36,561 nt of DNA from a virus, in IMG/VR virus record IMGVR_UViG_3300012936_000059, positions 1-36,561 of that record. One strand, 5' to 3'. A program made the position numbers and the translations under genes. Numbering within the stretch: the first letter of the stretch is position 1; the number at the start of each line of letters is the position of its first letter. This document shows, piece after piece, positions 3,493 to 33,846 of the stretch. The notes below the pieces were generated by a model that saw only the letters and a program-made list of their open reading frames with translations, had not been told where the DNA came from and did not search any database.

Positions 3493-3954
3493 ATGAAAAT
3501 TGAACTGTCAAATACTAAAGGTGCGGTTACATTCCTTGAAGGCTCAGACTTAGATATTGTTCAAGGAGAAATAAATCTTAGAACAAGAATTCTTTCATCA
3601 GAAGTCACGCTGGTCGATGGCCAGGATGAAATTGATACAACTATTAATTTACCTGCCGGCACCAAAGTCAAGGCCTGGAAGGTAGAAATACTAACTGCAG
3701 GTGGTAATGCGGCAAACATAACAGCATTAGGCCAGGCACAAGCAGTTGCAGCAGGAGCAAACATAGCAGACTTTTCTGGCATTTTTGCGCTGGCCCAAAA
3801 TAGCGCTGCAGGTGCATCAGAACAAGGTACAGTTGCATCAGCAGGTGCAGCTGTCTTAGGTGCAGCAGATATTGATTTGTTTATGCAACATGCTGACCCA
3901 GGAGCAAATCCTCCAAAAGTAAGAGTCTCTATTATGATTGAAGAAATTATCTAA
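3493..3954 (+). CDS. Beta-rich virion protein, second of the tandem pair (decoration-like)
   Basis: 153 residues, AGGAG site seven bases before the ATG, 16 bases after its paralogue. It keeps the INLPAGTKVKAWKVEI core and the VRVS-I-IEE ending of its neighbour, while the middle (residues about 75-125) is an Ala/Gly-rich region that differs completely. The first twelve residues also differ. Conserved frame with divergent middle suggests a common fold with different exposed loops. It is the last gene before a strong terminator, closing this transcription unit. Confidence 0.7.
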   Translation: MKIELSNTKGAVTFLEGSDLDIVQGEINLRTRILSSEVTLVDGQDEIDTTINLPAGTKVKAWKVEILTAGGNAANITALGQAQAVAAGANIADFSGIFALAQNSAAGASEQGTVASAGAAVLGAADIDLFMQHADPGANPPKVRVSIMIEEII

Positions 3955-3978
3955 TTTTTATTTAGACTTTTAATCTTT

Positions 3979-4016
3979 AAACCTCACTGTAGTAGAGATA
4001 CTCTTTGAGGTTTTTT
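3979..4016 (+). terminator. Rho-independent terminator
   Basis: AAACCTCA (3979-3986) pairs with TGAGGTTT (4006-4013), with an inner AGTA/TACT stem (3991-3994 / 3999-4002), and runs into six T residues (4011-4016). It lies 25 bases after the second beta-rich gene and separates it from the neck genes. Confidence 0.85.
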
Positions 4017-4050
4017 AGTATTTAAAAGTCGATAATTTGACTACTTACAA

Positions 4051-4077
4051 GTGTTTTTTATTAAACAGTCCTATAAT
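4051..4077 (+). promoter_or_regulatory. Candidate promoter after the terminator
   Basis: TATAAT at 4072-4077 follows GTGT (4051-4054) by 17 bases. It lies just after a strong terminator and 32 bases before the neck-gene ATG, where a new transcript is expected. The GTGT box is shared with the gap before the polymerase-like gene (32747). No TTGACA-type -35 at good spacing. Confidence 0.35.
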
Positions 4078-4108
4078 TACTTATGTAAAGGATTTACAGG
4101 AGTTTTTT

Positions 4109-5623
4109 ATGATAACGTTTGTTAGTACAACGCAACCAACACCTTTTGGTATTTTTGATTCTGATTCGCATTTTCAAGAAGATGCTGATGGTTTAGTGTT
4201 ATATGTTAAACGTCGATTAGGTGATGACGTTTTAAGTGTTGAATTGACAAGCAAACAAATATGGGCAAATTTTGAAGAAGCTACACTAGAGTTTTCAAAG
4301 CAAATAAACGCACATCAGGCCGAATCTTATATGTCGAATATTTTAGGTTTAAGCACAGGACTTAATGAAACATTTAGAAAAAATGAAAATGGCCATTATT
4401 ACTATATAGACTTAGGTCAAGAAGAAAATGATCTAATAGATGACGGCACAGGTTCTATCAATACAAGAAAAAATGTTCAAGTTTTAAAGATACAAGATGT
4501 TAATGATCCAAGGTTTAAGCTTCAAAATAAAAAAGCTACATATAAAATTGATGCAGGACAAATAGTAGAGCCTCGAGAGATAGTTTCTTTGCTTCAAGAC
4601 GAATCTGCCAGTCCAGTTGTAGACAAGTTAAATGGCCCAAGTGGTCAAGAGCAAAAATTTCCTAGAGAAACATTAGAATATTTAATAAGAAGATCTGAAC
4701 CTTATGCAAATGAAGCTTTTGTTGGTGGTGTAACTAATTCTATTAAAGGATTTATAAATCTTGATCATGACAAACAAGACTACAATGTGTACAAGGATAT
4801 GATTATTGCAGGACCAAATGGAGAACAATTATCTCTACAAGAATTTGATGGTAGCGATGATCATTTATCTTTGTTCAATCCAAAGTTTAAAAATCAACTT
4901 CTTCCAACTGCTACGGCAACAAAAATAAAAATAAACGAAATATTTCATTTTTCTCCCCAAGCAGCATATAGATTTTTTGATACAACATCTGCAATAAATT
5001 ATTTAAACAATCAGTTTTCATTTGAGTCTTTTACGCCTGAGACAGTTTTTTATGTCTTGCCAGTCTTTGAAGATTTGTTAAGAGCTGGCCAGTTAGACAT
5101 ATCAAATAGAGTTAGAAGAAGTAATTTTTCATATAAGTTACAAGGGCAAAACTTAAGAATATTCCCAAGGCCTACGCAAAGTAATCCTCTAAGTCTTTTT
5201 ATTGACTTTTCGTTTCCCTCTGATCCATATAAACCTAACTTACCATATTCAGACGAGTCTATTAATGGTGTGTCTAATTTATCTAACGTTCCTTTTGGCA
5301 ATATAAAGTATAGTGAAATTAATCAAATGAGTAGGCAGTGGATAAGACAATACACGCTTGCTTTATGCAAAGAAACGTTAGGATTAATTAGATCAAAATT
5401 TAGTAGTGTTCCTATTCCTGGGAGTGATGTTCAGTTAAACGGAAATGATCTTATTAGTCAAGGAAGAGATGATAGACAAAGACTTGCTGAATCACTGTCA
5501 GAAACTTTAGATAAGTTGACTTATCAAAAACTTTTAGAGGCTGATGCATCTCAAAGTGAGTCTATGAATACTATATTAAAAAGAATACCTGTTCCTAACG
5601 GAAGAGCAATAATAATAGGGTAG
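4109..5623 (+). CDS. Neck/head-completion connector-like protein
   Basis: 504 residues from ATG 4109, chosen because ACAGGAG lies seven bases upstream; the frame is open to 4037 but without a good start there. Residues about 45-75 (LTSKQIWANFEEATLEFSKQ) form helices with the FEEA pattern common in phage head-tail connector/neck proteins. The rest is mixed, ending in a helical region (about 400-490) with IRQYTLALCKETLGLIR. It begins the tail operon directly ahead of two small neck-type genes and the sheath, the place where T4-like phages carry gp13. Assignment rests on that pattern and context; it is longer than T4 gp13, so another portal-proximal role is possible. Confidence 0.5.
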   Translation: MITFVSTTQPTPFGIFDSDSHFQEDADGLVLYVKRRLGDDVLSVELTSKQIWANFEEATLEFSKQINAHQAESYMSNILGLSTGLNETFRKNENGHYYYIDLGQEENDLIDDGTGSINTRKNVQVLKIQDVNDPRFKLQNKKATYKIDAGQIVEPREIVSLLQDESASPVVDKLNGPSGQEQKFPRETLEYLIRRSEPYANEAFVGGVTNSIKGFINLDHDKQDYNVYKDMIIAGPNGEQLSLQEFDGSDDHLSLFNPKFKNQLLPTATATKIKINEIFHFSPQAAYRFFDTTSAINYLNNQFSFESFTPETVFYVLPVFEDLLRAGQLDISNRVRRSNFSYKLQGQNLRIFPRPTQSNPLSLFIDFSFPSDPYKPNLPYSDESINGVSNLSNVPFGNIKYSEINQMSRQWIRQYTLALCKETLGLIRSKFSSVPIPGSDVQLNGNDLISQGRDDRQRLAESLSETLDKLTYQKLLEADASQSESMNTILKRIPVPNGRAIIIG

Positions 5624-5627
5624 TAAC

Positions 5628-6284
5628 ATGGCAAGATTATTTTTAGGACAAAGAGAAGCAGACTTTTTTTCTGATATTTCAAAAGAATTGATTAAAGATG
5701 TTGCAGGGCAAAAAATATACTACTATACAGTGCGAGAAGATCTAAGTGATGTTCACGATGTATACGAAGAATCAATGCATAAAATATTTAATCCGCCTAC
5801 TGAAATAGAGTGTTTAGTTGAATGGCAGCCATCTGAAGTCAAAACAACACAATTTGGGCATGAGCAAATAAAAACAATTTCAGTCTTTATGCACAATAGA
5901 GATGTTATCGATAGAGACTTAAATATTCAGCAAGGTGATTACATATCTTACGGTGAATACTTTTTTGAAATTACATCTATAGTTTACGACAAATTAGTTT
6001 ACGGTCAAATAGAAAGAGTAACATCAATAAAGCTTGCATGTAAGCAAGCTCGTATTGAGCATATATTTAAAAATGCTATTGGCCCAACTTACGAAGCTTA
6101 TGTCGAAAGTGATGCGGTTCAAGTAGAGTTTGAGCAACAAAGAGGACAAACTGAGTCTGATGTTCGTCAGCTCGTTAAAGACGGTGTACTTGAAGAGCCT
6201 ATTTCAAAACCTAGAAAAGTTGCTAATGACGGAACTGTTAAAAGTGTAAATGGTGTAGGCTCTTCATTTTACGGAGATGATTAA
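5628..6284 (+). CDS. Neck/head-tail joining protein (gp14-like position)
   Basis: 218 residues, four bases after the previous stop. The N-terminal half contains YYYTVREDLSDVHDVYEESM and FNPPTEIECLVEWQ, followed by a beta-rich core (about 70-135) with QQGDYISYGEYFFEITSI, the kind of small barrel seen in head-tail stopper/joining proteins. The C-terminal 60 residues are polar and probably flexible. It overlaps the next start by one base (TAATG), so it is co-translated with the tail-completion gene. Neck function is inferred from fold pattern and order; direct gp14 homology is not established. Confidence 0.5.
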   Translation: MARLFLGQREADFFSDISKELIKDVAGQKIYYYTVREDLSDVHDVYEESMHKIFNPPTEIECLVEWQPSEVKTTQFGHEQIKTISVFMHNRDVIDRDLNIQQGDYISYGEYFFEITSIVYDKLVYGQIERVTSIKLACKQARIEHIFKNAIGPTYEAYVESDAVQVEFEQQRGQTESDVRQLVKDGVLEEPISKPRKVANDGTVKSVNGVGSSFYGDD

Positions 6285-7571: not shown

Positions 7572-10500
7572 ATGGCAGAGCAGACATTTAAGTCTCCAGG
7601 CTTTTTTGAACGAGAAATAGAAGTAATCAAAAGGCCTATAGTAAAAAGAAATGATGTTCCAGTAGGTGTTATTGGAATGGCGCGCAGAGGACCTGCATTT
7701 GTACCAACTACAGTTTATTCTGCAGATGAGTTTGCAAGAGTTTTTGGGCGCCCAGATAGAAGAATGATGAGTAATCACGCAGTTTCTGAGTTTTTTAGAA
7801 ATCAAGGAAAGGCACTTACTTTTTGTAGAACACTAGGTAGTGGTTACTTTGATGAAGGCACAGGTAACACAATTAACGCAGGTTTTAAATTTGTCTCTTC
7901 AGCAGCAAATAACAAAAAACACGGTTCAGTTCACTTTATTGTTGCAAAGCATCAATTAGCAAACTCTGAATTTTTATCACTAGGCAGCTTTAATGATAAT
8001 GACTCACACACTACAAATATGGATAGTGACTCAGCTGGCGGTTTAGCTGGAGCTGCAGGTGATGGTGTAGTTGAGTTAATTAGAGCAATGATTTTTACTC
8101 ACAAAGACTACGCAGTAACTGTAGGTTTGGAAGATAATGCAGACGATCACACAATAATAACAGACAATAAATTTACAATAAGATTAAGAACACAATCAGA
8201 AATTACTAACAACGAAGAAGGAATAGCATATTCTGTTTCTTTAGACCCTTTAAGAGATGATTACATTTCTAAAGTATTAAACATAGATCCTCTTTCTTTT
8301 GACGAAAAAAAGCACTATTTGTATGCAGACTTTCCAGTTGATGAAGTTGTTGCTAGTTCTGATACAAAAGCAGTTGGTGTTTTACACCCGAATGATACTT
8401 GGGACAGTAAATTTAACAATTTTCAAAGTAAGTTTACAACTCCAGAAACTCCTAGTTTTATATCGCAACCTTTTGGTGATAAAGAATATGATCTTTTTCA
8501 TATTGAGTCTTTGGATGATGGTTCATATGCTTCGACAAAATATAAAATATCAATAACAGGACTTCGAGCTAGCACAGATCCAACTGATAATTATGGAACC
8601 TTTAACTTAACAGTTAGAGATTTGAGAGACACAGATGAATCTCCTATTGTTTATGAGTCTTATACAAATTGTTCTCTAAATCCAGTAGCAGATAACTACA
8701 TTGCAAAAATAATTGGTGATCAAAAACTTTACTATAACTACGAAGCTGATGGTGAAGAAAAACGTCTAGTTAGAGAAGGAACTTTTAAAAATAAATCAAC
8801 TCGAATTAGAGTTGTTATGAGCAGTGATGTTCAAATGCAAGAAGTCCCAGAAAAAGCTTTACCTTTTGGATTTAGAGGTGTTCCTGCACTTTTATTAAAT
8901 GATGATGGCACAGATTCGAGTACAAATTTAAGAATGTCGTCTAATAGAGATATTGGCAATTCTGGTTTAGACCACGCTGTAATGCCTCCTTTACCTTATA
9001 GATTTAAAATAACTAAAGGCACAGTTAAAACTGGTCAAAGCTATGCACAAAATTATACGGGTCAAGCTTCAACAGCAGAATCAGTTGATTTAAATCTTCA
9101 CTGGGGATTAATGACTACAACTATCGAAGATATAGACCAGCCTAATAGCGGAACTAACTTTAATTATTTGATAGAAAATTATACTAAGTTTTTAAGTGCT
9201 GATTATAGTGTTTGGTCTAAACAAAAAGCTGACAAGCATAATAATAATAAATTTAGTTTAGCAAAAGTATCTCTAAACAAAGATACTTTGTCCGATGTTG
9301 ACGGTACTATTAATGATATATTTAAAGATGCAGTATATATTAGAAATGCAGATGCTGACAATAGTGTGATGTATGATGCATCTCAACATTTGGTCAAAAT
9401 GGGTGGCGATACTAGTGATAGCTTAGCTCAAGATACTGATAGAGTTTCTTTGGCAAAGCTTTTAGCTGAAGATGCTACTAAGTTTAATAAATATAGTTTA
9501 GTAGCCAAATTTACTGCGCCCTTTTATGGAGGTTTTGACGGTCTAAATATTTTAGATAGCGATTCATATTATATGACAGATCTTGCTTCTTCGACCGAGC
9601 AAGACCTATACAGAGCTGATTTGGCTAACGGCAAAGCACACAGTGACGGCTTTAGCAGCGGAATAAGAGGCACTTTAAAGTCTGAGTCTAATCCTACTAT
9701 GCAAGGCGAAGAAAACAAAAACAACGTTATTTCTTCATATAGAAATGCGATCGAAGTTATGACTGATGAAATGGTTGTTAATCATAACGTTATTACTGTG
9801 CCTGGCATAAGAGATCCTTTTTTAACAGACTACGTTAAAAATAGAGTAGAAGCTTACGGTAGATCAATCTTTTTAATGGACATTCCTCAGTACGACAAGC
9901 AAACTTTAAGAATTTTTGTTAGCGAAAGAGGCATTGCAGATGCAAGACCAGATGTTGGAGAAACATCAGCACAATTTGAGTTAAGAGAAGTTAATTCTTC
10001 TTATGTTGCCTCATACTTTCCAGACGCATCAGTATTAGATAGCAGTGACAGTGATGAAGGTTCAGTAAACGTTAGAAGATCAGTTAGAGTAAGTCCATCT
10101 GTTGTTGCGTTAGGTGCACTTGCCAAAACAGACGCAGTTTCTCAACCTTGGTTTGCACCTGCTGGTTTTGCGAGAGGTGCTCTTGATACAATTACTTCAA
10201 TAGACGTAAGACTCAATGCAGAAGATCGTGATACTTTATATGAATCACGAATTAATCCTATTGCAAACTTTCCAAATAAACAGTTTGTTATATTTGGACA
10301 GAAAACAGCACAGCTTGCAAGAACTGCACTTGATAGAGTTAATGTTAGAAGATTAGTTTTAGAAGTTAAAAGGCAAATAGGCATAACTGCACAACGTTTG
10401 CTTTTTGAGCAAAATAATAAAGCAACTAGAGACTCTTTTGTTTCTACTGCATCACAACGACTTGCAGACATACAGCTCGGTCAAGGTATTGAAGATTTTA

Positions 10501-10646
10501 GAGTTGTAATGGATGATACAAATAACTCTGCTGAAGATGTTGACAATAATAGACTTAACGGTAAAATTATTATTGTTCCGACGCGTGCTGTAGAGTTTAT
10601 TGCAATTGATTTTGTAATAACTAATGCAGGCGTTGAATTTCCCTAA
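7572..10646 (+). CDS. Contractile tail sheath protein 1
   Basis: 1024 residues behind TTAGGAGA. The N-terminus (SPGFFEREIEVIKRPIVK, then VGVIGMARRGPAFVP) is the standard sheath arm and first domain. The C-terminus has PWFAPAGFARG, then FVIFGQKTAQ, ALDRVNVRRLVLEVKRQI and the closing EFIAIDFVITNAGVEF, the hallmark of the phage tail-sheath family that forms the contractile outer tube around gp19-type tubes. T4 gp18 has 659 residues, so this protein carries about 360 extra, mainly between residues 110 and 700. The DDGSYAST segment and following beta domain recur in both sheath paralogues downstream. It keeps all conserved ends and is probably the standard sheath subunit. Confidence 0.9.
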   Translation: MAEQTFKSPGFFEREIEVIKRPIVKRNDVPVGVIGMARRGPAFVPTTVYSADEFARVFGRPDRRMMSNHAVSEFFRNQGKALTFCRTLGSGYFDEGTGNTINAGFKFVSSAANNKKHGSVHFIVAKHQLANSEFLSLGSFNDNDSHTTNMDSDSAGGLAGAAGDGVVELIRAMIFTHKDYAVTVGLEDNADDHTIITDNKFTIRLRTQSEITNNEEGIAYSVSLDPLRDDYISKVLNIDPLSFDEKKHYLYADFPVDEVVASSDTKAVGVLHPNDTWDSKFNNFQSKFTTPETPSFISQPFGDKEYDLFHIESLDDGSYASTKYKISITGLRASTDPTDNYGTFNLTVRDLRDTDESPIVYESYTNCSLNPVADNYIAKIIGDQKLYYNYEADGEEKRLVREGTFKNKSTRIRVVMSSDVQMQEVPEKALPFGFRGVPALLLNDDGTDSSTNLRMSSNRDIGNSGLDHAVMPPLPYRFKITKGTVKTGQSYAQNYTGQASTAESVDLNLHWGLMTTTIEDIDQPNSGTNFNYLIENYTKFLSADYSVWSKQKADKHNNNKFSLAKVSLNKDTLSDVDGTINDIFKDAVYIRNADADNSVMYDASQHLVKMGGDTSDSLAQDTDRVSLAKLLAEDATKFNKYSLVAKFTAPFYGGFDGLNILDSDSYYMTDLASSTEQDLYRADLANGKAHSDGFSSGIRGTLKSESNPTMQGEENKNNVISSYRNAIEVMTDEMVVNHNVITVPGIRDPFLTDYVKNRVEAYGRSIFLMDIPQYDKQTLRIFVSERGIADARPDVGETSAQFELREVNSSYVASYFPDASVLDSSDSDEGSVNVRRSVRVSPSVVALGALAKTDAVSQPWFAPAGFARGALDTITSIDVRLNAEDRDTLYESRINPIANFPNKQFVIFGQKTAQLARTALDRVNVRRLVLEVKRQIGITAQRLLFEQNNKATRDSFVSTASQRLADIQLGQGIEDFRVVMDDTNNSAEDVDNNRLNGKIIIVPTRAVEFIAIDFVITNAGVEFP

Positions 10647-15425: not shown

Positions 15426-15914
15426 ATGGCAGAGACACTTTCAGTCACGGAAATGATTCCAAATAAGTTTGAGCCAAAAAGAAAGAATCGATGGATCTTT
15501 GCGATTGAAGGCATCGATGCTTTTCTAATTAAGTCAGCAGCTCGACCACAATACTCAACAAACGAGACAACAATAAACTTTATGAATAGCACAAGATACC
15601 TTGCAGGAAAGACAACTTTTAGTTCAATAAACGTTGTTCTTTATGATCCAATTGCTCCAAGCGGTGCTCAGCAAGTTATGGAATGGGTTAGAACTCACTT
15701 TGAGTCTGTTAGTGGCCGTAGTGGTTATGCAGATTTCTATAAGAGAGATTGTCAACTCAAGATGTTGGATCCTGTAGGTACTGTTGTTGAACTTTGGGAT
15801 ATTAAAGGCGCTTATCTTCAAAGTGCTAACTTTGGTGACATTGGATACGATGATGATGCGCCAATGGAAATTACTATGGAACTTAGATTTGATAACTGCG
15901 TACTTCAGTACTAA
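15426..15914 (+). CDS. Tail tube protein (T4 gp19-like)
   Basis: 162 residues, close to the 163 of T4 gp19, behind TTTAGGAGA. Features of the family are visible: the N-terminal FEPKRKNRWIFAIEGIDAF, KSAARPQYS, the central VVLYDPIAPSGAQQVMEWV and the closing LQSANFGDIGYDDDAPMEIT followed by a short beta strand. Tube subunits stack as hexamer rings around the tape measure and carry DNA through the tail. It is the only tube gene in the window, although there are three sheath genes. It is followed by a long hairpin that could limit read-through. Confidence 0.92.
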   Translation: MAETLSVTEMIPNKFEPKRKNRWIFAIEGIDAFLIKSAARPQYSTNETTINFMNSTRYLAGKTTFSSINVVLYDPIAPSGAQQVMEWVRTHFESVSGRSGYADFYKRDCQLKMLDPVGTVVELWDIKGAYLQSANFGDIGYDDDAPMEITMELRFDNCVLQY

Positions 15915-16020: not shown

Positions 16021-16051
16021 CAAATAGACATAAAGAAAATAGGTTTTGCTA

Positions 16052-19000
16052 ATGCGGTTAACAAACAATACACCTTACAGCGTCAATATAATAAAGTCAG
16101 ATCAGGTAAAATCTGAAAAATTTTCTTCTTTAACATCTGATACATTGGGTATTGCTGGACCTTCTATAAAAGGTCCAGCATTTGTACCAAAAATAATAAG
16201 CGACTTTGAAGAAAATAGTTCTGCAACAGGAATCCTTAATACATTTGAAGACACATTTGGAAAAATAACTGACTATAAACAAATGCCTAACTCAATTGCA
16301 GCTGTTAATGAATGGTTTTCTCAAGGCGGTGCACAAGTAGCTTATGTTAGAATTCTTGGAGCAGGCAAAAATGGTATACCTAACGAACAAGGAATTGTTG
16401 AAGGAAGTGGATTTTTAGTAAATGATCTAGTCGTTAGCGGATCATCTACTCCTGGTTTTGCAGGAAACAATTCTTTTTCTACAAATAATAGTCAGGAAAA
16501 CATGCCAGGTAAAACTGTTCTATTATCTTCTTTTTTCAAACAAAAACAAAAATATAAAGAAACAAGTGAAAACACAATACACATATCCTCATTTGACGAC
16601 TATTTATCTCAGAGTAATTTAATACAAAACGAAGACGATATATGTGAGCTAATTACACATACTATTTTTTGCGCTCGAGGATGTGACATTAACATTGATG
16701 AGACTGAACTGGATACTCCTATTAGCATATTACATTTAAAAAACAATGATTTTAATACTTTAAAAGACTTAAGTGACGATAGAAGATTTACTCTAAATAA
16801 TCAAAAGACTCGATATAGAGAGAAATATTTAAATACACATTATAAACACTTTTTAGATAAAGGTCATGTTGTTTATTCAAAGTTTTTACCTTTTCCTGCA
16901 ATGATCAACAAACATGGATTAAAAGAAGCAGGAGATTTAAATGATAATTTTCATAATTTACTATTATCTACAAATGATTACCAACTAGAAGATTTTCAGA
17001 GTAAGTTTAAAACTGCTCAAACGCCTTGGATAGTATCACAACCTTTAAATAGAGAAGGAATTGAAGATAATAGAGAAAATTTAATTGAAAAATGTCTAAA
17101 TTTATTTAAGATCTATGCAATTGATGATGGCACTGCAGGAAATAAATTTAGAATAAAAATAACACCTCAAGTCTTAGGTAATCGCAAGAATAAAACATTT
17201 TCAAAGTTTACTTTAACCTTGTCAATGTACAATAAAAACAACAACAGCTTTAAAAAATTATTGCAATATAGAAACTTAAATTTAAATCCTGATAGTAAAG
17301 ACTATATTGCAAGAAGAATTGGTACTGAGCATGAATACTACGACTTTAATTTACAAAAAATTGTAAGTAAAGGTAATTATTCTTTAACTAACAATTACAT
17401 TAGAGTAGAAGTTAATAAAAATATCGAGTATCATAAAGTTTCGATCTATGAAATTATTCCTTGCGGCTTTATGCCTTACCCTAAAATCGATTATAGTATA
17501 AAACAAGTGCCTTTGCACTATTCAACAAATCTTCTAAGAAAAAGTAGAATAGAAAAAGATTTGTCACAAAATTCTTCTTGGGGTGTTGCTTTTGATAATT
17601 TTAGTATTACATCACAGCAAGAAATTGTTGAAGGGCGTCAAGTTATATTTACATGTAGTTTTGATTCAGGATCATCAGAAGATCAAAAAGCACATTACTA
17701 CGATTATACAAAATACTATCAGGATAATTACATACAAAAGAATAGAAATAACTGGCACTATGCAACAAGCTCTCAAGAAGATACTACAAATTCTTTTTTT
17801 CATCTTGAAAAAATACTATATCCAGACATTAACAGTATTGATAATGTTAAAAAATGGATATATGCAATATACAGAAAAGATGGTAAAAAAACTTCTGATA
17901 TTACTTCAATAGGCAATAATATTTTTTCGTATAAGTACGTTGATATTGAAAAATTACTTAAATCAGACAGCACAGATGATAGTATAAATTCAGAATTTCT
18001 CTCGTTTGAGCTCTTTACATTTGGCGGTTTTGATGGTGTCAATTTACTAGACTACGATAAAAAACGAATGAATCAAAATGCTTTTGTCAAAGAGCTTGAA
18101 AACGAAGAAAACAGTGAAAATCCTAATAATAATAAGATGCCTACTTATAATTCTTTTAGAATTTCTCATAATATTTTAGTTGACGATTCAAATTGTGACA
18201 TTGATATACTTTCATTTCCTGATGTTGGTCACCACAAGTTTAATAAAAGCATTTCAGTACTTTCAAATGAAAATAGAAAATATCTGTCTGTTTTAAATGT
18301 TCCAGAATTTTCTGCGTCTGGTATTTTAAAAAACTATGATTTTTATGATATAAATTATAATTTACCTGATTCACAAGAACAACAGAGTCTAAATGGATCA
18401 ATTCAGCAAGATTTAAAAAATGGAACTAATGTAACAGTTGACAGTACAATTCAAAATAACTACAACAACAGATTTACTTTTAATGTTTGCAATACATTTG
18501 AAGCAGCTTTAAGATTTAATAGTATTGTACATGCTAGACACGTAATACAACCTTCAGTTTTGGCAATAAGAGCAATTGCAGGAAACATATCTTCTCCGTT
18601 AAGCATTAATAGAGTTTTTACAAATAGCGGTATAGATTACATAAAAGTTTATAATCTTAACTTTAATAGAAGAAATAATAATAATTTTGATAGAGTTGTT
18701 AAAAACTCTCTTTTAGGAAATACTAATATAAACTACATTGTCCCAGACACAATAGACAATCAGACGTTTTTAAATTTAAATTCACAAAATACTTCTATAA
18801 ACTTAAGAAATAGTCTTTCTAGACACGCACATAATACTAGAATAGTGAACAATATTAAAAAAAATATAAAATACTTAATTTACTTAGAAGATATATTGTT
18901 TAATAATATTTCTAAAATAATTAATCTAAATAATTCTTTAAATTTTAAAATAGATGAATTATTAAATAATTACAAAGAAAACAACACAATAAAAGATTAC

Positions 19001-19201
19001 TATGTAAGTTTTAACTCTGGGTCTTCTGATTCTGAAATTAGTGATGCATATAAAAATATTATGAGAACAAAAATAGCAATATGTCTATATGGTAACAGCA
19101 CTGAAAATATTCAAGAATTTAGATTAGATGATTTATTTAATATTACACAAAATAATTTAACAGAAACAGCAGACCAAGATATAGTAATTAATACCATATA
19201 A
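16052..19201 (+). CDS. Divergent tail sheath paralogue 3
   Basis: 1049 residues from ATG 16052; a TTG six bases earlier is in frame but less likely. The N-domain is clearly sheath-like (LGIAGPSIKGPAFVPK, VNEWFSQGGAQVAYVRILGAG), and the middle shares the AIDDGTAGNKFRI and YYDFNLQKIVSKGNYSL domain with sheaths 1 and 2. The C-terminus departs: PWFAPAG and FGQKT are missing, and the helix equivalent to ALDRINVRR is reduced to SLSRHAHNTRIVNNIKK, in an Asn/Ile/Lys-rich, very AT-rich stretch. Because the C-domain normally makes the inner sheath and tube contacts, this copy may cap or terminate the sheath or bind the baseplate rather than polymerise. It has its own late promoter. Confidence 0.82.
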   Translation: MRLTNNTPYSVNIIKSDQVKSEKFSSLTSDTLGIAGPSIKGPAFVPKIISDFEENSSATGILNTFEDTFGKITDYKQMPNSIAAVNEWFSQGGAQVAYVRILGAGKNGIPNEQGIVEGSGFLVNDLVVSGSSTPGFAGNNSFSTNNSQENMPGKTVLLSSFFKQKQKYKETSENTIHISSFDDYLSQSNLIQNEDDICELITHTIFCARGCDINIDETELDTPISILHLKNNDFNTLKDLSDDRRFTLNNQKTRYREKYLNTHYKHFLDKGHVVYSKFLPFPAMINKHGLKEAGDLNDNFHNLLLSTNDYQLEDFQSKFKTAQTPWIVSQPLNREGIEDNRENLIEKCLNLFKIYAIDDGTAGNKFRIKITPQVLGNRKNKTFSKFTLTLSMYNKNNNSFKKLLQYRNLNLNPDSKDYIARRIGTEHEYYDFNLQKIVSKGNYSLTNNYIRVEVNKNIEYHKVSIYEIIPCGFMPYPKIDYSIKQVPLHYSTNLLRKSRIEKDLSQNSSWGVAFDNFSITSQQEIVEGRQVIFTCSFDSGSSEDQKAHYYDYTKYYQDNYIQKNRNNWHYATSSQEDTTNSFFHLEKILYPDINSIDNVKKWIYAIYRKDGKKTSDITSIGNNIFSYKYVDIEKLLKSDSTDDSINSEFLSFELFTFGGFDGVNLLDYDKKRMNQNAFVKELENEENSENPNNNKMPTYNSFRISHNILVDDSNCDIDILSFPDVGHHKFNKSISVLSNENRKYLSVLNVPEFSASGILKNYDFYDINYNLPDSQEQQSLNGSIQQDLKNGTNVTVDSTIQNNYNNRFTFNVCNTFEAALRFNSIVHARHVIQPSVLAIRAIAGNISSPLSINRVFTNSGIDYIKVYNLNFNRRNNNNFDRVVKNSLLGNTNINYIVPDTIDNQTFLNLNSQNTSINLRNSLSRHAHNTRIVNNIKKNIKYLIYLEDILFNNISKIINLNNSLNFKIDELLNNYKENNTIKDYYVSFNSGSSDSEISDAYKNIMRTKIAICLYGNSTENIQEFRLDDLFNITQNNLTETADQDIVINTI

Positions 19202-19225: not shown

Positions 19226-20068
19226 ATGAACAAACTAGATAAGCCTATTTCTCCTGAAGAGATTGACAAGAAGGGTCCTATCCAAATACAAAATGTTGCA
19301 AAAGATGAATTTGGATTAGATATTCCTGTAGAAAATGTTCCTTTGCCTTCTATGGGAATAATCTATAATAAGGATAGCTCACTTTATAACAAAGAAGTAT
19401 TACAAATAAGACCAATGACAGCAAGAGAAGAAGATATTCTTACATCAAGAGCTTATATAAAAGATGGAACTGTAATATCAAAGCTTATCGATAGTTGTCT
19501 TGTTGACAAAACTATCAATTCAGAAGATTTAATTTCAGGTGATAGAACAGCACTTATGGTTGCGTTAAGAATTACAGGCTATGGTGCAGACTATGAAATT
19601 GAAGTATCTTGCCCGGAATGCGGTGCAACAAACAAGTCAACTTTTGACTTGGCTTCCTTACCTATCAAAAGACTTAAAGTAGAGCCTGTTGGTGATGGCG
19701 AAAACTTATTTGAAGTTGTTTTGCCTGTTACAAAAAAGAAAGTTCGCGTAAAGTTTCTTACAGGACATGACGAAAAAGAAATGATGATTATTAACGAAAG
19801 AAAAAAGAAAAAAGGATTTAGTACAGATACTTCTGTTACTGATAGATTAACTAGATCAATACAGTCAGTTGATGATATTACAGATAAAAATAAAATTTCA
19901 TTTTTTGTTAAAAATCTTCCTGTTAGAGATTCTCTTGCATTGCGTAGATTTTTAGATAAACAAGAGCCGGGCGTTGAAATGAAAAGTAACTTAAGATGTA
20001 ACAGCTGCTTTGAAGAAAGTGAGGTTGACTTACCAATTGGAACTTCGTTTTTTTGGCCTGACAGCTGA
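19226..20068 (+). CDS. Baseplate hub/assembly protein, T4 gp26-like, with zinc-ribbon cysteines
   Basis: 280 residues, CTGGAG site 10 bases upstream. Residues about 40-90 (LPSMGIIYNKDSSLYNKEVLQIRPMTAREEDIL) and the DRTALMVALRITGYG segment match the T4 gp26-type baseplate family. CPEC at 129-132 and CNSC at 258-261 form a likely zinc-binding pair interrupted by a beta domain. T4 gp26 (208 residues) acts in hub assembly; here the gene sits just upstream of the tape measure, a position held in lambda-like phages by tail-assembly chaperones. Its 3' end overlaps a second ORF in another frame over a run of seven T. Confidence 0.75.
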   Translation: MNKLDKPISPEEIDKKGPIQIQNVAKDEFGLDIPVENVPLPSMGIIYNKDSSLYNKEVLQIRPMTAREEDILTSRAYIKDGTVISKLIDSCLVDKTINSEDLISGDRTALMVALRITGYGADYEIEVSCPECGATNKSTFDLASLPIKRLKVEPVGDGENLFEVVLPVTKKKVRVKFLTGHDEKEMMIINERKKKKGFSTDTSVTDRLTRSIQSVDDITDKNKISFFVKNLPVRDSLALRRFLDKQEPGVEMKSNLRCNSCFEESEVDLPIGTSFFWPDS

Positions 20069-20279
20069 GAGTAAGCATTATATTTTAGAATATATTTACT
20101 TGTTAATTAGACATTTAGGCTTTACATATAAGGATGCTTATAATCTTCCTGTTTGGAAAAGAGATTGGTTTGTTAAAAAGTTTATAGAAGAAAAGGAAAA
20201 AGCACAAGAAAGACAAGCACCTCCACCAAGTAACAACGCAGCAGTTAATAGTTCTTCTAGAAGACTTTTTAGACAGTAA
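20010..20279 (+). CDS. Overlapping ORF upstream of tape measure; probable tail-assembly chaperone extension
   Basis: The frame is open from TTG 20010 (GTG 20019 is also possible) but contains no ATG and no good ribosome site, so expression may depend on shifting from the gp26-like frame. After the overlap the protein reads ILEYIYLLIRHLGFTYKDAY, then LPVWKRDWFVKKFIEEKEKA, a helical pattern typical of the second product of tail-chaperone pairs. The last 25 residues are Pro/Ser/Asn-rich. Position directly before the tape measure is where chaperone pairs such as lambda G/GT lie; they hold the tape measure in an assembly-ready state. The real start is uncertain. Confidence 0.65.
   Translation: MKKVRLTYQLELRFFGLTAESKHYILEYIYLLIRHLGFTYKDAYNLPVWKRDWFVKKFIEEKEKAQERQAPPPSNNAAVNSSSRRLFRQ
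20047..20056 (+). other. Candidate translational slippery site (GTTTTTTTGG)
   Basis: The gp26-like frame reads TCG TTT TTT TGG and stops five codons after the run. A -1 shift meets TGA at 20059-20061 and is useless. A -2 or +1 shift on the seven T enters the overlapping ORF, giving a fusion of about 350-351 residues. The downstream ORF has no ATG. Mu-type phages are known to use -2 shifts in tail-chaperone genes. Confidence 0.4.
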
Positions 20280-20327: not shown

Positions 20328-23300
20328 GTGGCTGACAATTCTAAGTTAATGCAACAAATGATTAAAACTCTTCAATCAATAGAGCAAAATACTTCTACTA
20401 GCTCTAGCAGCGGATCTGCAGGCATTAATAGTCAAATGTTTCAGGCAATGAATGCAGCGTCACAAATGATGAACTCAAATACACAAAGTGCGTCTGATAA
20501 TGTAAATAGGTTTGTTGCTTCGCTAGACCAAGCTGCAGCTAGATTCAAAGATCAAGGAAAAATACTCGGCTTTATGACTACTTCCTTTGACCAAATGGAT
20601 AAATTAACAGGAAGAATTTTTAGCAAAATAGGAAATAAAACTGGTATAACAAAACTATTTAAAGGTGTAAAGTCTGTTGGGTCTGGTATAAAAGAGTGGG
20701 GTTCTGCAATTAAAAATGCAGAAAAAGGCTTAGATAGAGTGTATATACTTGTCGACGGAATAACTTCAGCAATGGGAAGTATTATTGGAGGAACATTAAG
20801 CTTTGTAGGAAAAGCTATCGGCGGATTTATTAGCTTAGGAAAAGTAATTACTAACTCTATAGTGTCAGTACTTGGAAATGCATTGACCTCAATAACAAAA
20901 TTTGCAGAGTTTGCAGTCACCTTGCCTATAGAAATTGCAAAAAAAGCGTCAGAACTAGGAGGGCAGCTGAGGCAAGAGCTGGTAGAAGTAATTGGAACTG
21001 CTGTAGAAAACACAAAAGAATTGTTTGACTTGGCATCAAACGGAGGCGATGCATTTAAAAAACTAGGAGGAATTGCAAAAGGATCACTACTCTCTTTTCA
21101 AAGTGTAAATAGTACGATGACAAAGCTTTTTGGTTATGGAGCACAAGGCGCTGCAAAGATGATTGCTGATATTACTAGAAATATCGCTGATATGGGAGTT
21201 TTTTCCGAAGTATTTGCAAAGTCTACGACAAAAAGCGGAAAATCAATTGAGTTTATTACGAGAATGACTAGAGGAATGGGAATGCAGGCTGCAGATCTTA
21301 ATTATATTGTAGCTGAAGCATTTAAAAACGGTGAGCATTATTTTGAAACAATGACTCGTAACAAAGAAGAGCTTGATATAGTAAGCACTGAATTTGGTGT
21401 TAATAGAAAAAGATTGTCAGCAAATTTCTTTCAGCTTCGCAAAGACATTACACAGTTTGGTCATTTATCGGATATTGAACTAAAAAGGACAGCAGCATCT
21501 GCAATGCAATTAGGTGTAGAAATGAAAGATGTTGCTGCAGTATTTAGTAAGTTTAATACATTTGAAGATGCAGCAAACAGTGCAGCTTTATTACAACAAA
21601 CTTTTGGAATGAATATAGACGCACTACAGCTAATTAGAGCTGAAGATCCTATGGAAATTGTTGAAATGTTTAGACAGTCAATGCTAATGACTGGTAGATC
21701 ATTTGATGATCTTAACAGACATGAAAAATCTTTAATGGCTAGCCATACAGGAATGTCTGCAGAAGCACTTAAGCAAGTAATGAACTATAAAACGTTGGGC
21801 AAGTCCTACGAAGACATTAAGAAAATAATGAACGATCAAAAACCTGAAGAACGTCAAATTAGAGCAATGAAAGATATGGCATCTTCTATGGCAGAAGTTC
21901 AAAAAATTATGAACAAAAAAGACTTCTTTACAGCTTTCCTAGATGGTTTTTCAAAGTCAATTATGTATGGCACAACGTTTGGTGACGCAATGGCTAAAGT
22001 AAATAAAGCTATGGAAAACTTTTACGAAGAAGGTTTAAAGCTTGACGAACAAGGCAAAAAAAATCTAGAAGCAATAACAGCACCATTTAGCGGAATATTA
22101 GATGAAATAGTTGACATATTTAGTGTTAAAGGACTTAGAGGAATAATGTCAGAAGTTCTTGAAAATGTTAAAGAGTTTGTTGAAGACATAACAGATCCTA
22201 CTCGGTGCTTTGCAGGTATATCTCGCAAATGGGAACTTAAAATAAAAGGTCTTTTTGACTTTTCACAATTAGCTGATGATTCGAGCTTCTTAGGAAGATT
22301 AGTAAAAGTTACAGGAAAAATTATTAAATTTGTGCTTAAGTCATTTGTTGCACTTGGGCCAGGATTAATTAAAGTTGTTGGTGATGCGCTATTATCAGTT
22401 ACAAGCTTTCTTAGAGATCCTAACAAGTTTGTGCTAAGTGATACTGCTTTAAATATAGCAAAGTTCTTAGGGTTTACAGACGCTGAATGGGCGTGTTTTA
22501 AAACTGACATGGGTATTGCCTTAGCAGACATACAGGAATACTTGCTTGGCGTTGAACCTTCAGGAGGAAATCCTGGACAAAAAGGTCTATTTAGCAAACT
22601 TTTTGGCGAAGGTGGTGATGCAGGAGGTATTCTTGATAATGTAAGCACACAGCTAGGAAAAATGATTAAAAAAGCTTTAGGCATTGCAGAAAAGGATGAC
22701 TTTTTTACATCAGTAGGACAAAAGATTGTTGACGGCATGGTTGCTGCAAAGGAAAAAATAAAAGAGCTAGTTAAACCTTTGATGGATGGAATTAAAGAGT
22801 GGCTCATTAAAAATACAGACTTTGGTGCAACAATGTTTTCTACTCCAGGAGATTCTAGCGCTCTTGAGATAAAAGAAGGTGATTCTATTACGACTAAGGC
22901 AGTCAAAAGGTACAAGAAAGGTGGTGCAACTAAACTACTCGCAGAAAGTGCAAAAGATACTTATCGTGGTGCAACAGGTTTACTAGGTAAGATTCCTTTA
23001 GTTGGAGGTGCTTTAGAAACAGTAGCAAATTTACCTATGGACGTAATTGATTATGGTTACGGTGGCGAGTTAATGGCTGGTGCAAAAGGAGCAGTAAAAG
23101 CAGGAGTTGCAAAGAAAGCAGCAGAAGAAGCTGCAAAGAAAGCTGCAGAAGCATCTGCAAAGAAAACTTTCACAGAAGCTGCAAAAGGAGCAGTTAAAAC
23201 TGGAGCAAAAAGTTTAGGCAAAGGAGCAGCTAAAACTGTTGCAACAGGCGGTTTAAATTTAGCTGGAAAATTTGCATCAAAAGCGTTAGGGCCTGCTATA

Positions 23301-24035
23301 TCAATACTTTCTGAGTATGCTGAGAGCGAAATGAATATGAATGAAGCTCTTCAAGACCTAGATAAAAAATTAAAAAACGGAGAAATTTCTCCTGCACAAT
23401 ACAAAGTCATAAGCGAGTATATGCAAGAGCAAGAGACAAAAGGAATGTTTGCTCGAGCTGGTGGAGGTATGCTTGCAGCTGCTCTTACTGGCGCTGCGTT
23501 AGGTACATTTGCGCCTGGTGTTGGTAATCTTGTTGGTTTTGCTGCAGGTGTAGGAAGCTATATGCTAGGTAGTGCAGCTTCTGAGTATGCTTTTGATACA
23601 GAATCAGCGCAAGAAGCGATGGCTAAAAAACTTGCAGAAATGCAAGCAGCTGAAACTGCTTCAGTAGGAACAGCAGATCCAACAAAAGCAGTAGCTCAAG
23701 TAACAGAGCAAGTAAAGCAAGCACAGGCTCAAGCAGCTGCAGAAAGAAAAACTGAAAGAGAAGCTGAATTATCGCATGTAGCTGATAGATTTGTTCAAGT
23801 AAGTACAAATCAGGCTGACTCGCTAATGAACGCAATGTCTAGAGGATTTGAAGGTATGCATGTTATGTTTGATCAAGAGTCAGTAGGCAGAGTAATTGTA
23901 CCTTATATGACAGAGGTTCAAGCAAGACATGCAGGAAATGCAGCTACAAACCCAAGTCATAAAACGCCAGGAACTGGTAGCGATAGAGCTGCAGTAGCAC
24001 AAAATAGTTCAGTAGGATCAGCTGCGCCTGCTTAA
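20328..24035 (+). CDS. Tape measure protein
   Basis: 1235 residues from GTG 20328, chosen because TAGGAG lies nine bases upstream. The protein is mostly helical, with two hydrophobic Gly-rich stretches (about 140-200 and 1044-1090) that in tape measures may insert into the host membrane. The MQLGVEMKDVAAVFSKF and LMASHTGMSAEALKQVMN region (about 390-490) recurs in myovirus tape measures. Residues about 920-985 are an Ala/Lys-rich repeat zone, and the C-terminal part (about 1110-1150) is a Gln/Ala/Glu coiled coil. The tape measure sets tail length and fills the tube; at about 1.5 angstrom per residue this implies a tail near 185 nm. Upstream chaperone-like genes support the call. Confidence 0.88.
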   Translation: MADNSKLMQQMIKTLQSIEQNTSTSSSSGSAGINSQMFQAMNAASQMMNSNTQSASDNVNRFVASLDQAAARFKDQGKILGFMTTSFDQMDKLTGRIFSKIGNKTGITKLFKGVKSVGSGIKEWGSAIKNAEKGLDRVYILVDGITSAMGSIIGGTLSFVGKAIGGFISLGKVITNSIVSVLGNALTSITKFAEFAVTLPIEIAKKASELGGQLRQELVEVIGTAVENTKELFDLASNGGDAFKKLGGIAKGSLLSFQSVNSTMTKLFGYGAQGAAKMIADITRNIADMGVFSEVFAKSTTKSGKSIEFITRMTRGMGMQAADLNYIVAEAFKNGEHYFETMTRNKEELDIVSTEFGVNRKRLSANFFQLRKDITQFGHLSDIELKRTAASAMQLGVEMKDVAAVFSKFNTFEDAANSAALLQQTFGMNIDALQLIRAEDPMEIVEMFRQSMLMTGRSFDDLNRHEKSLMASHTGMSAEALKQVMNYKTLGKSYEDIKKIMNDQKPEERQIRAMKDMASSMAEVQKIMNKKDFFTAFLDGFSKSIMYGTTFGDAMAKVNKAMENFYEEGLKLDEQGKKNLEAITAPFSGILDEIVDIFSVKGLRGIMSEVLENVKEFVEDITDPTRCFAGISRKWELKIKGLFDFSQLADDSSFLGRLVKVTGKIIKFVLKSFVALGPGLIKVVGDALLSVTSFLRDPNKFVLSDTALNIAKFLGFTDAEWACFKTDMGIALADIQEYLLGVEPSGGNPGQKGLFSKLFGEGGDAGGILDNVSTQLGKMIKKALGIAEKDDFFTSVGQKIVDGMVAAKEKIKELVKPLMDGIKEWLIKNTDFGATMFSTPGDSSALEIKEGDSITTKAVKRYKKGGATKLLAESAKDTYRGATGLLGKIPLVGGALETVANLPMDVIDYGYGGELMAGAKGAVKAGVAKKAAEEAAKKAAEASAKKTFTEAAKGAVKTGAKSLGKGAAKTVATGGLNLAGKFASKALGPAISILSEYAESEMNMNEALQDLDKKLKNGEISPAQYKVISEYMQEQETKGMFARAGGGMLAAALTGAALGTFAPGVGNLVGFAAGVGSYMLGSAASEYAFDTESAQEAMAKKLAEMQAAETASVGTADPTKAVAQVTEQVKQAQAQAAAERKTEREAELSHVADRFVQVSTNQADSLMNAMSRGFEGMHVMFDQESVGRVIVPYMTEVQARHAGNAATNPSHKTPGTGSDRAAVAQNSSVGSAAPA

Positions 24036-32781: not shown

Positions 32782-33846
32782 ATGAACGTATATAATAAGA
32801 TAAAAATTAGCAATATTTATAATATAAAAAATCATAAAGTTTTTCAAAAATATATTAAATTTACTAACAATTATGTAGACTTTGTAGACTTTAAAAACTT
32901 ACTTCCGACTTCTGTATATGATACATTTATTAAAACAGTAGATAATGATTACTTAAAGTCTCAAGAATTAGATTCAAATTGTAACTTTATACAGTTATAC
33001 AACCAACACAGTTTTTTGTTAGATAAAATCAAAGAAGCTAAAATTAACAAGTTAGCTTATAAAGCTTTTCTGGAAATAGAAAAAAACGATACTGTTGTTT
33101 CTATTTTAAAAACTTTTCGACCAAAAAAGTTTTATGCTGATCGGGTTAATTACAAATTAAACAGTAATGTAACGGGTAGGTTAGTTGTAAAAGAAGGTCC
33201 TAATATTTTAACTTTGCCAAAAAGATGTAGATCAATTATAGAGTCTAGATTTAAAGACGGTAAAATAGTATGTATTGACTTTAATAATTTAGAGCCTAGA
33301 ATATGTCTAAAGCTGTCTGGTAAAGATGCGGGTAAAGACATTTATTTAGAGATAAACGACTTATTAAGTTTTGACGCGGATAGAAGTGTTATAAAAAGAG
33401 CTATAATATCTGTTTTATATGGGGCCAGTTATAAATCACTTGACAATATATCAGCAGCTAGATCTTTAGAACTTTTTGAGTGTGTAAAAAATTATTTTGA
33501 TATAGATAATGTTTTAAAAATAGCTGAAAATATTGACAGTTTCGGTATTAGAAGAAATTATTATGGAAGACCTCTTTGGAATCTAGAAGAAACAAAAAGT
33601 AATATTATTTTAAACAATTACGTTCAATCATCAGCTGTAGACTTGGCACTAAATTACTTTTATCAACTAACAAATAATATAGATATAAACTTGGCTGTGC
33701 CAATTTTTATATTACATGACGCTATAATATTTGATGTAAATAAAGAGTATGAAGAGGCTTTAGAAAAAGAAGTAAAGCTTGGATATCATGATAAAAATTT
33801 AGGCTTCTTTCCTCTTTCTTTAGACATATTTAATAATCTATCTTAG
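32782..33846 (+). CDS. Compact family A DNA polymerase-like protein
   Basis: 354 residues. The polymerase motifs occur in order: TGR (131-133); motif A DFNNLEPR with catalytic Asp166 and steric-gate Glu171; motif B RSVIKRAIISVLYG with Arg201, Lys205 and Tyr213; YGRP (261-264); NNYVQSSAVD with Gln282; motif C LHDA with Asp313. The protein would extend the 3' end of a primer using dNTPs. There is no 3'-5' exonuclease or 5' nuclease domain, and only about 120 residues precede the palm, so the thumb is reduced. Unusual residues are Ile209 where Phe/Tyr is usual in motif B, and Ala for Glu in VHDE. No ribosome site is visible. It could be an active minimal polymerase, a subunit of a split enzyme, or a diverged remnant; intact catalytic aspartates favour activity. 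Confidence 0.8.
   Translation: MNVYNKIKISNIYNIKNHKVFQKYIKFTNNYVDFVDFKNLLPTSVYDTFIKTVDNDYLKSQELDSNCNFIQLYNQHSFLLDKIKEAKINKLAYKAFLEIEKNDTVVSILKTFRPKKFYADRVNYKLNSNVTGRLVVKEGPNILTLPKRCRSIIESRFKDGKIVCIDFNNLEPRICLKLSGKDAGKDIYLEINDLLSFDADRSVIKRAIISVLYGASYKSLDNISAARSLELFECVKNYFDIDNVLKIAENIDSFGIRRNYYGRPLWNLEETKSNIILNNYVQSSAVDLALNYFYQLTNNIDINLAVPIFILHDAIIFDVNKEYEEALEKEVKLGYHDKNLGFFPLSLDIFNNLS

Follow-up and report, generated by a model that had tools for sequence, protein, structure and literature searches.

Genes and reading frames at the locus

The window, which is the whole stretch of DNA analysed here, is an IMG/VR virus fragment of 36,561 bases, and the tail genes, shift site and T domain described below lie on its + strand. 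A tail sheath protein (7572-10646; PF17482, E 3.6e-9) and a tail tube protein (15426-15914; phrog_4542, E 6.7e-29) precede a gp26-like gene at 19226-20068, and a large unassigned open reading frame (ORF) at 16046-19201 sits between the tube gene and this locus. The gp26-like protein, the predicted short product (G) of 280 aa, belongs to the T4_baseplate family, as indicated by matches to PF12322 (E 4.9e-19; 69.3 bits against a curated cut-off of 24.5) and phrog_150 (E 3.2e-23). The 3' end of the gene reads ACT TCG TTT TTT TGG CCT GAC AGC TGA, in which seven T residues occupy 20048-20054 and the 0-frame stop lies four codons past the run at 20066-20068. The run, read as TTT TTT T(GG), constitutes a candidate shift site at which the P-site tRNA-Phe could slip by +1 on UUU_U. 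In-frame TTT TTT T is rare in the main genes of the window (2/10,520 codon positions); the other occurrence, at 5664 and followed by CT GAT early in the gene at 5628-6284, gave no sign of use.

An open +1 frame spans 19995-20279 and holds no ATG. Its sole candidate starts are TTG 20010, GTG 20019, TTG 20025, TTG 20037 and TTG 20100, and no well-spaced Shine-Dalgarno sequence was found ahead of the four upstream codons (20010, 20019, 20025 and 20037). The -1 frame meets a stop immediately after the run (FLA*). Recomputed fusion lengths were 350 aa for a +1 shift and 351 aa for a -2 shift. The preliminary description had reported the gp26-like ORF, the U7 run and an overlapping second ORF without ATG or Shine-Dalgarno sequence, had considered the -1 option closed at once, and had given 350-351 residues for a fusion by +1 or -2; all of these points were confirmed from the sequence, frames and translations. 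The second ORF had also been drawn from TTG 20010, which was not upheld, as the decoded part most likely starts with GGC at 20055 and comprises a domain of 74 aa (20055-20279), hereafter the T domain.

A GTG-started ORF of 1235 aa at 20328-24035 follows the pair. Searches of this ORF against Pfam and PHROG and by tblastn against phages gave no match, and it is a putative tape measure by position and size only; an annotated tape measure occurs at or near the same place in Flavobacterium immuto, Listeria LIS04 and Caulobacter Cr30 (loci L038, L045 and L258). The order of the tube gene (15426-15914), the pair (19226-20279) and the 1235-aa ORF fits a G/GT layout, and a chaperone role of the pair would likewise follow from position and homology. 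Directly after the tail genes, a 354-aa ORF (32782-33846) gave a weak match to DNA polymerase A (PF00476, E 3.5e-8) that narrowly missed the cut-off.

Searched by itself, the T ORF of the window matched no PHROG at E 0.1. Profiles were more informative: a non-iterated profile of the +1-frame ORFs recovered the gp51 of cyanophage Bellamy (E 2.3e-7) and its KVP40 counterpart (E 1.6e-7), and a profile built from -1-frame T domains of T4-like phages recovered T4 gp51 (E 3.7e-7) and the window T domain (E 5.2e-5), both in small databases. Judged by these profile matches, the T domain is homologous to the C-terminal domain of annotated gp51 (phrog_634). DUF6760 (PF20546) was rejected as an identity for T, as it scored 14.7 bits (E 0.034), under the cut-off of 27, and the control genomes also lacked a match.

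A search for solved structures by sequence found none. Among solved structures, the AlphaFold model (pLDDT 85.9) of the window gp26-like protein aligned best with 2ob9, the HK97 tail assembly chaperone; the match is weak by VIA-align (Z 4.9, 91 residues, rmsd 3.5) and also by Foldseek (prob 0.33).

Relatives with the +1 arrangement

A DNA-level search for phages carrying the pair matched nothing. Viral contigs were scanned with the window gp26-like protein, thereby yielding 36 loci of 34-86% identity, and every distinct locus that reached the junction carried TTT TTT T followed by GG, AC or AT, with a 0-frame stop a few codons downstream and an open, similar +1 ORF. Further scans and phage records brought the total to 170 loci; several queries were used, as one profile over all gp26-like proteins was too diverse for scanning. 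A hidden Markov model (HMM) of the second ORF placed the T domain next to gp26 in 164 loci, with 157 in the +1 frame and 7 in the -1 frame. The former include a second copy of the window, without which 156 remain, and dereplication at 90% protein identity reduced these to 97.

An in-frame UUU_Y (UUU then U or C) was present within the last ten gp26 codons of 97/97 dereplicated +1 loci, compared with 6.6% of the ten-codon windows taken from other parts of these genes. The slip codon lies 3-7 codons ahead of the 0-frame stop in all relatives. The T domain, recognised by the HMM, is conserved in an open +1 frame throughout the 156 loci, including those with gp26 identities of about 34% and less and those in phages of 53% GC. 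Base variability follows the 0-frame phase before the site and the +1-frame phase after it, and codon periodicity thus switches at the site. Conservation of the T run, which had been named as a check in the preliminary description, was observed as T7 in most relatives (88 distinct rows) and as UUU_Y in all +1 relatives.

Conserved RNA structure downstream of the +1 site was not found overall (mean z -0.36, 4/79 below -2; window z 0.22). A 7-bp GGGCCTA/TAGGCCC hairpin lies shortly after the slip site in L113, L114, L125, L127 and similar loci, where it is a possible stimulator, and is absent in the window. Upstream anti-Shine-Dalgarno pairing in the +1 group was mildly stronger than in synonymous shuffles (-4.1 vs -3.3 kcal/mol).

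Direction of the frame change and alternative explanations

The TTT TTT T of the window by itself fits +1 slippage, -2 slippage and polymerase slippage alike, and the direction rests on the relatives. Their diverged sites read TTC TTT TGG, CTT TTT TGG, TTT CTT TGG, TTT CTA TTC and TTT CTT CTC; the Streptomyces-type phages carry CTG or CTA TTT followed by CGN or CAG, including ATC CTG TTT CGC, the Streptococcus phage GXN1 carries TTC TTT CGT and SP-15 carries TTT TTT CAC. UUU_Y is the sole feature common to these diverged sites, and it would let tRNA-Phe re-pair one base forward. At Phe-Phe loci whose second codon is the usable slip codon, that codon is always TTT and never TTC, though TTC makes up 26% of Phe codons; where Leu stands second, the Phe before it is encoded by TTT with C as the next base. 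This compensation between Phe and Leu codons indicates that the constraint concerns +1 slippage and not the T run as such.

A ribosomal -2 shift of the Mu type on U7, giving the 351-aa fusion with one extra Phe, is feasible in the window, where the P-site UUU at T4-6 can move to T2-4, and has a precedent in phage Mu (PMC3498833). We nevertheless regard it as improbable, since TTC TTT TGG, CTT TTT TGG, TTT CTA TTC, CTG TTT Cnn and TTC TTT CGT keep the same frame relation and allow no -2 re-pairing. Slippage of RNA polymerase on T7 would produce mixed mRNAs, of which those minus one U encode the fusion; the retention of T7 in most relatives is in line with this, as such runs can make polymerases slip. 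The frame relation is still +1, however, in GC-richer relatives that have UUU alone (ATC CTG TTT CGC in Streptomyces phages) and in those with the interrupted TTT CTA TTC. That three U's suffice in the Streptomyces phages argues against polymerase slippage, which we consider very improbable. The preliminary description had proposed a -2 or +1 frameshift before the tape measure; the frameshift is retained with +1 favoured, whereas -2 is set aside, as the diverged sites allow re-pairing only at +1.

Alternatively, T could be a gene of its own or a translationally coupled one, with initiation at a TTG, GTG or internal codon. Such codons exist in the window +1 ORF, and an ATG for T is present in L059, L063 and some T4-like phages. 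Against this, no ATG, GTG or TTG is available in 69/156 +1 loci from the preceding +1 stop up to the slip codon, and in 20/156 the closed part of the +1 frame reaches to less than or about 5 nt from that codon. Homology of T also starts right at the slip site, and the slip codon is lost precisely in those loci that have an ATG and a different frame. L059 and L063, both marine, encode T in the third frame, where it starts at an ATG of its own, and they use TTC for the Phe (TTC TTG TAT and TTC CTT TGG). The gp26 tree nests both within the +1 clade, beside the +1 loci L164 and L064, which shows that loss of the slip codon accompanies gain of a start. A good start codon without a T run, which the preliminary description had held to speak against a frameshift, was seen only in these two loci; as T was reframed and the slip codon lost together, they corroborate the link between slip codon and frame, and separate initiation appears even less probable than polymerase slippage. 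A chance overlap with a non-coding frame, with the T run an accident of base composition, would be compatible with the AT richness of the window and its many homopolymers (9 T7 and 45 A7 positions). Conservation of the T domain in 156 loci, including the 53%-GC phages, and the codon periodicity contradict this explanation, to which we attach almost no probability. A +1 frameshift in the window gp26-like gene thus very probably accounts for the arrangement, as judged from the compared sites.

The probable -1 site of T4-like phages

The gp26 gene ends at a different site in T4-like phages. In Bellamy and KVP40 it reads NNT TTT TTC GNN stop, which contains U_UUU_UUC, a heptamer of the canonical -1 type, through which the -1 frame runs as FFR... 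into gp51. The same arrangement was present in 82/82 further contigs, with FFR in nearly all. The -1 group comprises L168, L169 and L172-L263. U_UUU_UUY, with C or U as its last base, was found in 13/13 phage records examined in detail (P-SSM2, S-PM2, Bellamy, KVP40, Aeromonas 65, Stenotrophomonas Yut2, Ochrobactrum OC, Caulobacter Cr30, HTVC008M, Cronobacter S13, Vibrio EniLVp02, and Agrobacterium OLIVR5 and Atu_ph07). After dereplication, 70/70 -1 loci carried U_UUU_UUY with TTT as the first Phe codon, and the second Phe was TTC in 67/70, though TTT is the commoner Phe codon. The 0-frame codon after the two Phe codons is nearly always GNN, with a free second base; in the -1 frame this base is the synonymous third position of the Arg codon CGN, and selection thus acts on the -1 frame from the heptamer onward, before the annotated gp51 ATG is reached. 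No plausible gp51 start lies ahead of the conserved part in Aeromonas 65, OC, HTVC008M and L227.

Upstream Shine-Dalgarno-like stimulators are known at bacterial -1 sites such as dnaX. In the -1 group, upstream anti-Shine-Dalgarno pairing was stronger than in synonymous shuffles (-6.8 vs -5.2 kcal/mol, sd 0.18), and a Shine-Dalgarno-like GAGGG precedes the heptamer, where Glu is encoded by GAG at 49:12 compared with a usage of 540:1231. The records viewed carry the heptamer without a frameshift annotation. Two loci with T in the -1 frame stand somewhat apart: L041 (LR756511, a 595-kb phage) has GGT TTT TTC (U_UUU_UUC) at a long distance ahead of the 0-frame stop, which is itself overlapped by an ATG, and both a frameshift and a separate start are possible there; in Munch (L047) the pair does not adjoin a recognised tape measure and fits the -1 scheme poorly.

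In T4, gp26 and gp51 are separate, divergently transcribed genes (L170; the observation covers 4480-5229 and 3803-4429 for gp51/gp26). T4 gp51 matched PF12322 over residues 1-201 (E 3.9e-52) and covers positions 13-280 of the 282 positions of phrog_150, while T4 gp26 covers 14-235 only. Given this coverage and the match of its C-terminus to the T profile, T4 gp51 seems to join a gp26-like domain to T within a single frame, with gp26 apparently the short form; the two would be paralogues serving as GT and G, respectively. Both T4 proteins join the tree inside the -1 clade (99/82), on long branches that leave their placement unsure; this position suggests that the T4 pair arose by duplication after a -1 ancestor.

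Proposed products and relation to known systems

The basis for our interpretation was read from sequence, namely, the frames, the conserved shift site, the homology, the start-less relatives and the codon-periodicity switch at the site; from it we infer the occurrence of the shift, its efficiency and the chaperone function. It is highly likely that +1 frameshifting at UUU_U provides a tail-assembly chaperone pair from one gene in the window. Most ribosomes would translate gp26 to the TGA and release the 280-aa protein in the 'G' role. In a fraction of ribosomes, with tRNA-Phe on the P-site UUU and U next, the tRNA would move one base forward (UUU_U to UUU), thereby skipping one T of 20048-20054, and decoding would continue with GGC CTG ACA... 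to 20279. The shifted product would be a 350-aa gp26-T fusion in the 'GT' role, with the junction ...TSFF-GLTAESK.... By analogy with lambda, G may coat the tape measure, and the T domain of the fusion may recruit tail tube subunits. The chaperone listing of the T4 homologues, the weak HK97 match of the predicted model and the gene position together point to such a G/GT-type role.

Frameshifted chaperones are already known, with -2 in Mu and very likely +1 in HSTV-2 (PMC5009743, PMC3498833). The lambda gpG/gpGT system (PMC5009743) resembles the window in its two overlapping ORFs before the tape measure, its short and C-terminally extended products and its slip near the end of the first gene, but the shift is -1 there and would be +1 on a single UUU_Y in the window, and no sequence relation is shown. 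Phage Mu shares the net frame change and the functional slot with the window, whereas the comparison excludes -2 for the diverged relatives of the window. HSTV-2, a haloarchaeal myovirus (PMC5009743), shares the +1 direction and has a UUU_C site; its gp22 ends with AAG UCC UUU CGC AGA (L171, ~15480-15515), near the PA-X sequence UCC UUU CGU. In contrast to the window, it is an archaeal virus, and its first protein is not detectably of the gp26 family (profile E 0.14).

UUU_C sites for +1 shifting are known from influenza A PA-X (UCC_UUU_CGU) and plant amalgaviruses (UUU_CGN) (PMC3498833, PMC5052127), which share with the present sites a P-site UUU, a following pyrimidine and the +1 re-pairing of tRNA-Phe proposed here. 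Similar sites among the relatives are TTC TTT CGT in Streptococcus phage GXN1 and CTG TTT CGC in Streptomyces phage BRock, and UUU_C of the PA-X type occurs in L038, L040, L042-L044 and L046. The eukaryotic viruses differ in using eukaryotic ribosomes, and the window and most relatives have UUU_U followed by UGG or UAC. The loci described here add a large set of candidate +1 sites from bacterial viruses that follow the UUU_Y logic of influenza PA-X.

For T4, the literature lists gp26 and gp51 among the chaperones of hub assembly and reports gp51 to be absent from the particle (PMC3004832). Their families are those of the window, with gp26 as the short form and gp51 bearing the T domain; T4 uses two divergent genes, whereas the window would use one locus and a +1 shift. 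We consider it likely that gp26/gp51 serves the T4-like superfamily as a whole as its G/GT chaperone pair, with three interchangeable modes of expression at the same Phe-Phe. These would be a +1 slip on UUU_Y (the window group, SP-15 and the Streptomyces BRock-type phages), a -1 slip on U_UUU_UUY that has a Shine-Dalgarno-like stimulator ahead of it (cyanophages, KVP40, Aeromonas 65 and HTVC008M) and, in T4, duplication of the gene together with an in-frame fusion (gp26 and gp51). If so, T4 is no exception, and a second gene replaced its frameshift. The lambda-type G/GT frameshift is said to be shared by long-tailed phages 'except T4' (PMC5009743), and cyanophage gp51 seemed short by ~200 residues (PMC3037559); both would be explained if full-length gp51 equivalents are frameshifted from gp26 and two genes serve in T4, an account drawn from the comparison that is testable. 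A gp26/gp51 frameshift was not found described in the open-licence literature.

The fusion is unannotated in the records viewed for SP-15, BRock, Mel-JY01, Aeromonas 65, HTVC008M and P-SSM2. Several deposited annotations (L043-L046, L254-L263 and other phage records) omit the T domain, start it wrongly or label it 'hypothetical'; Aeromonas 65 ST65p119 and SP-15 SP15_046 are examples of a wrong start.
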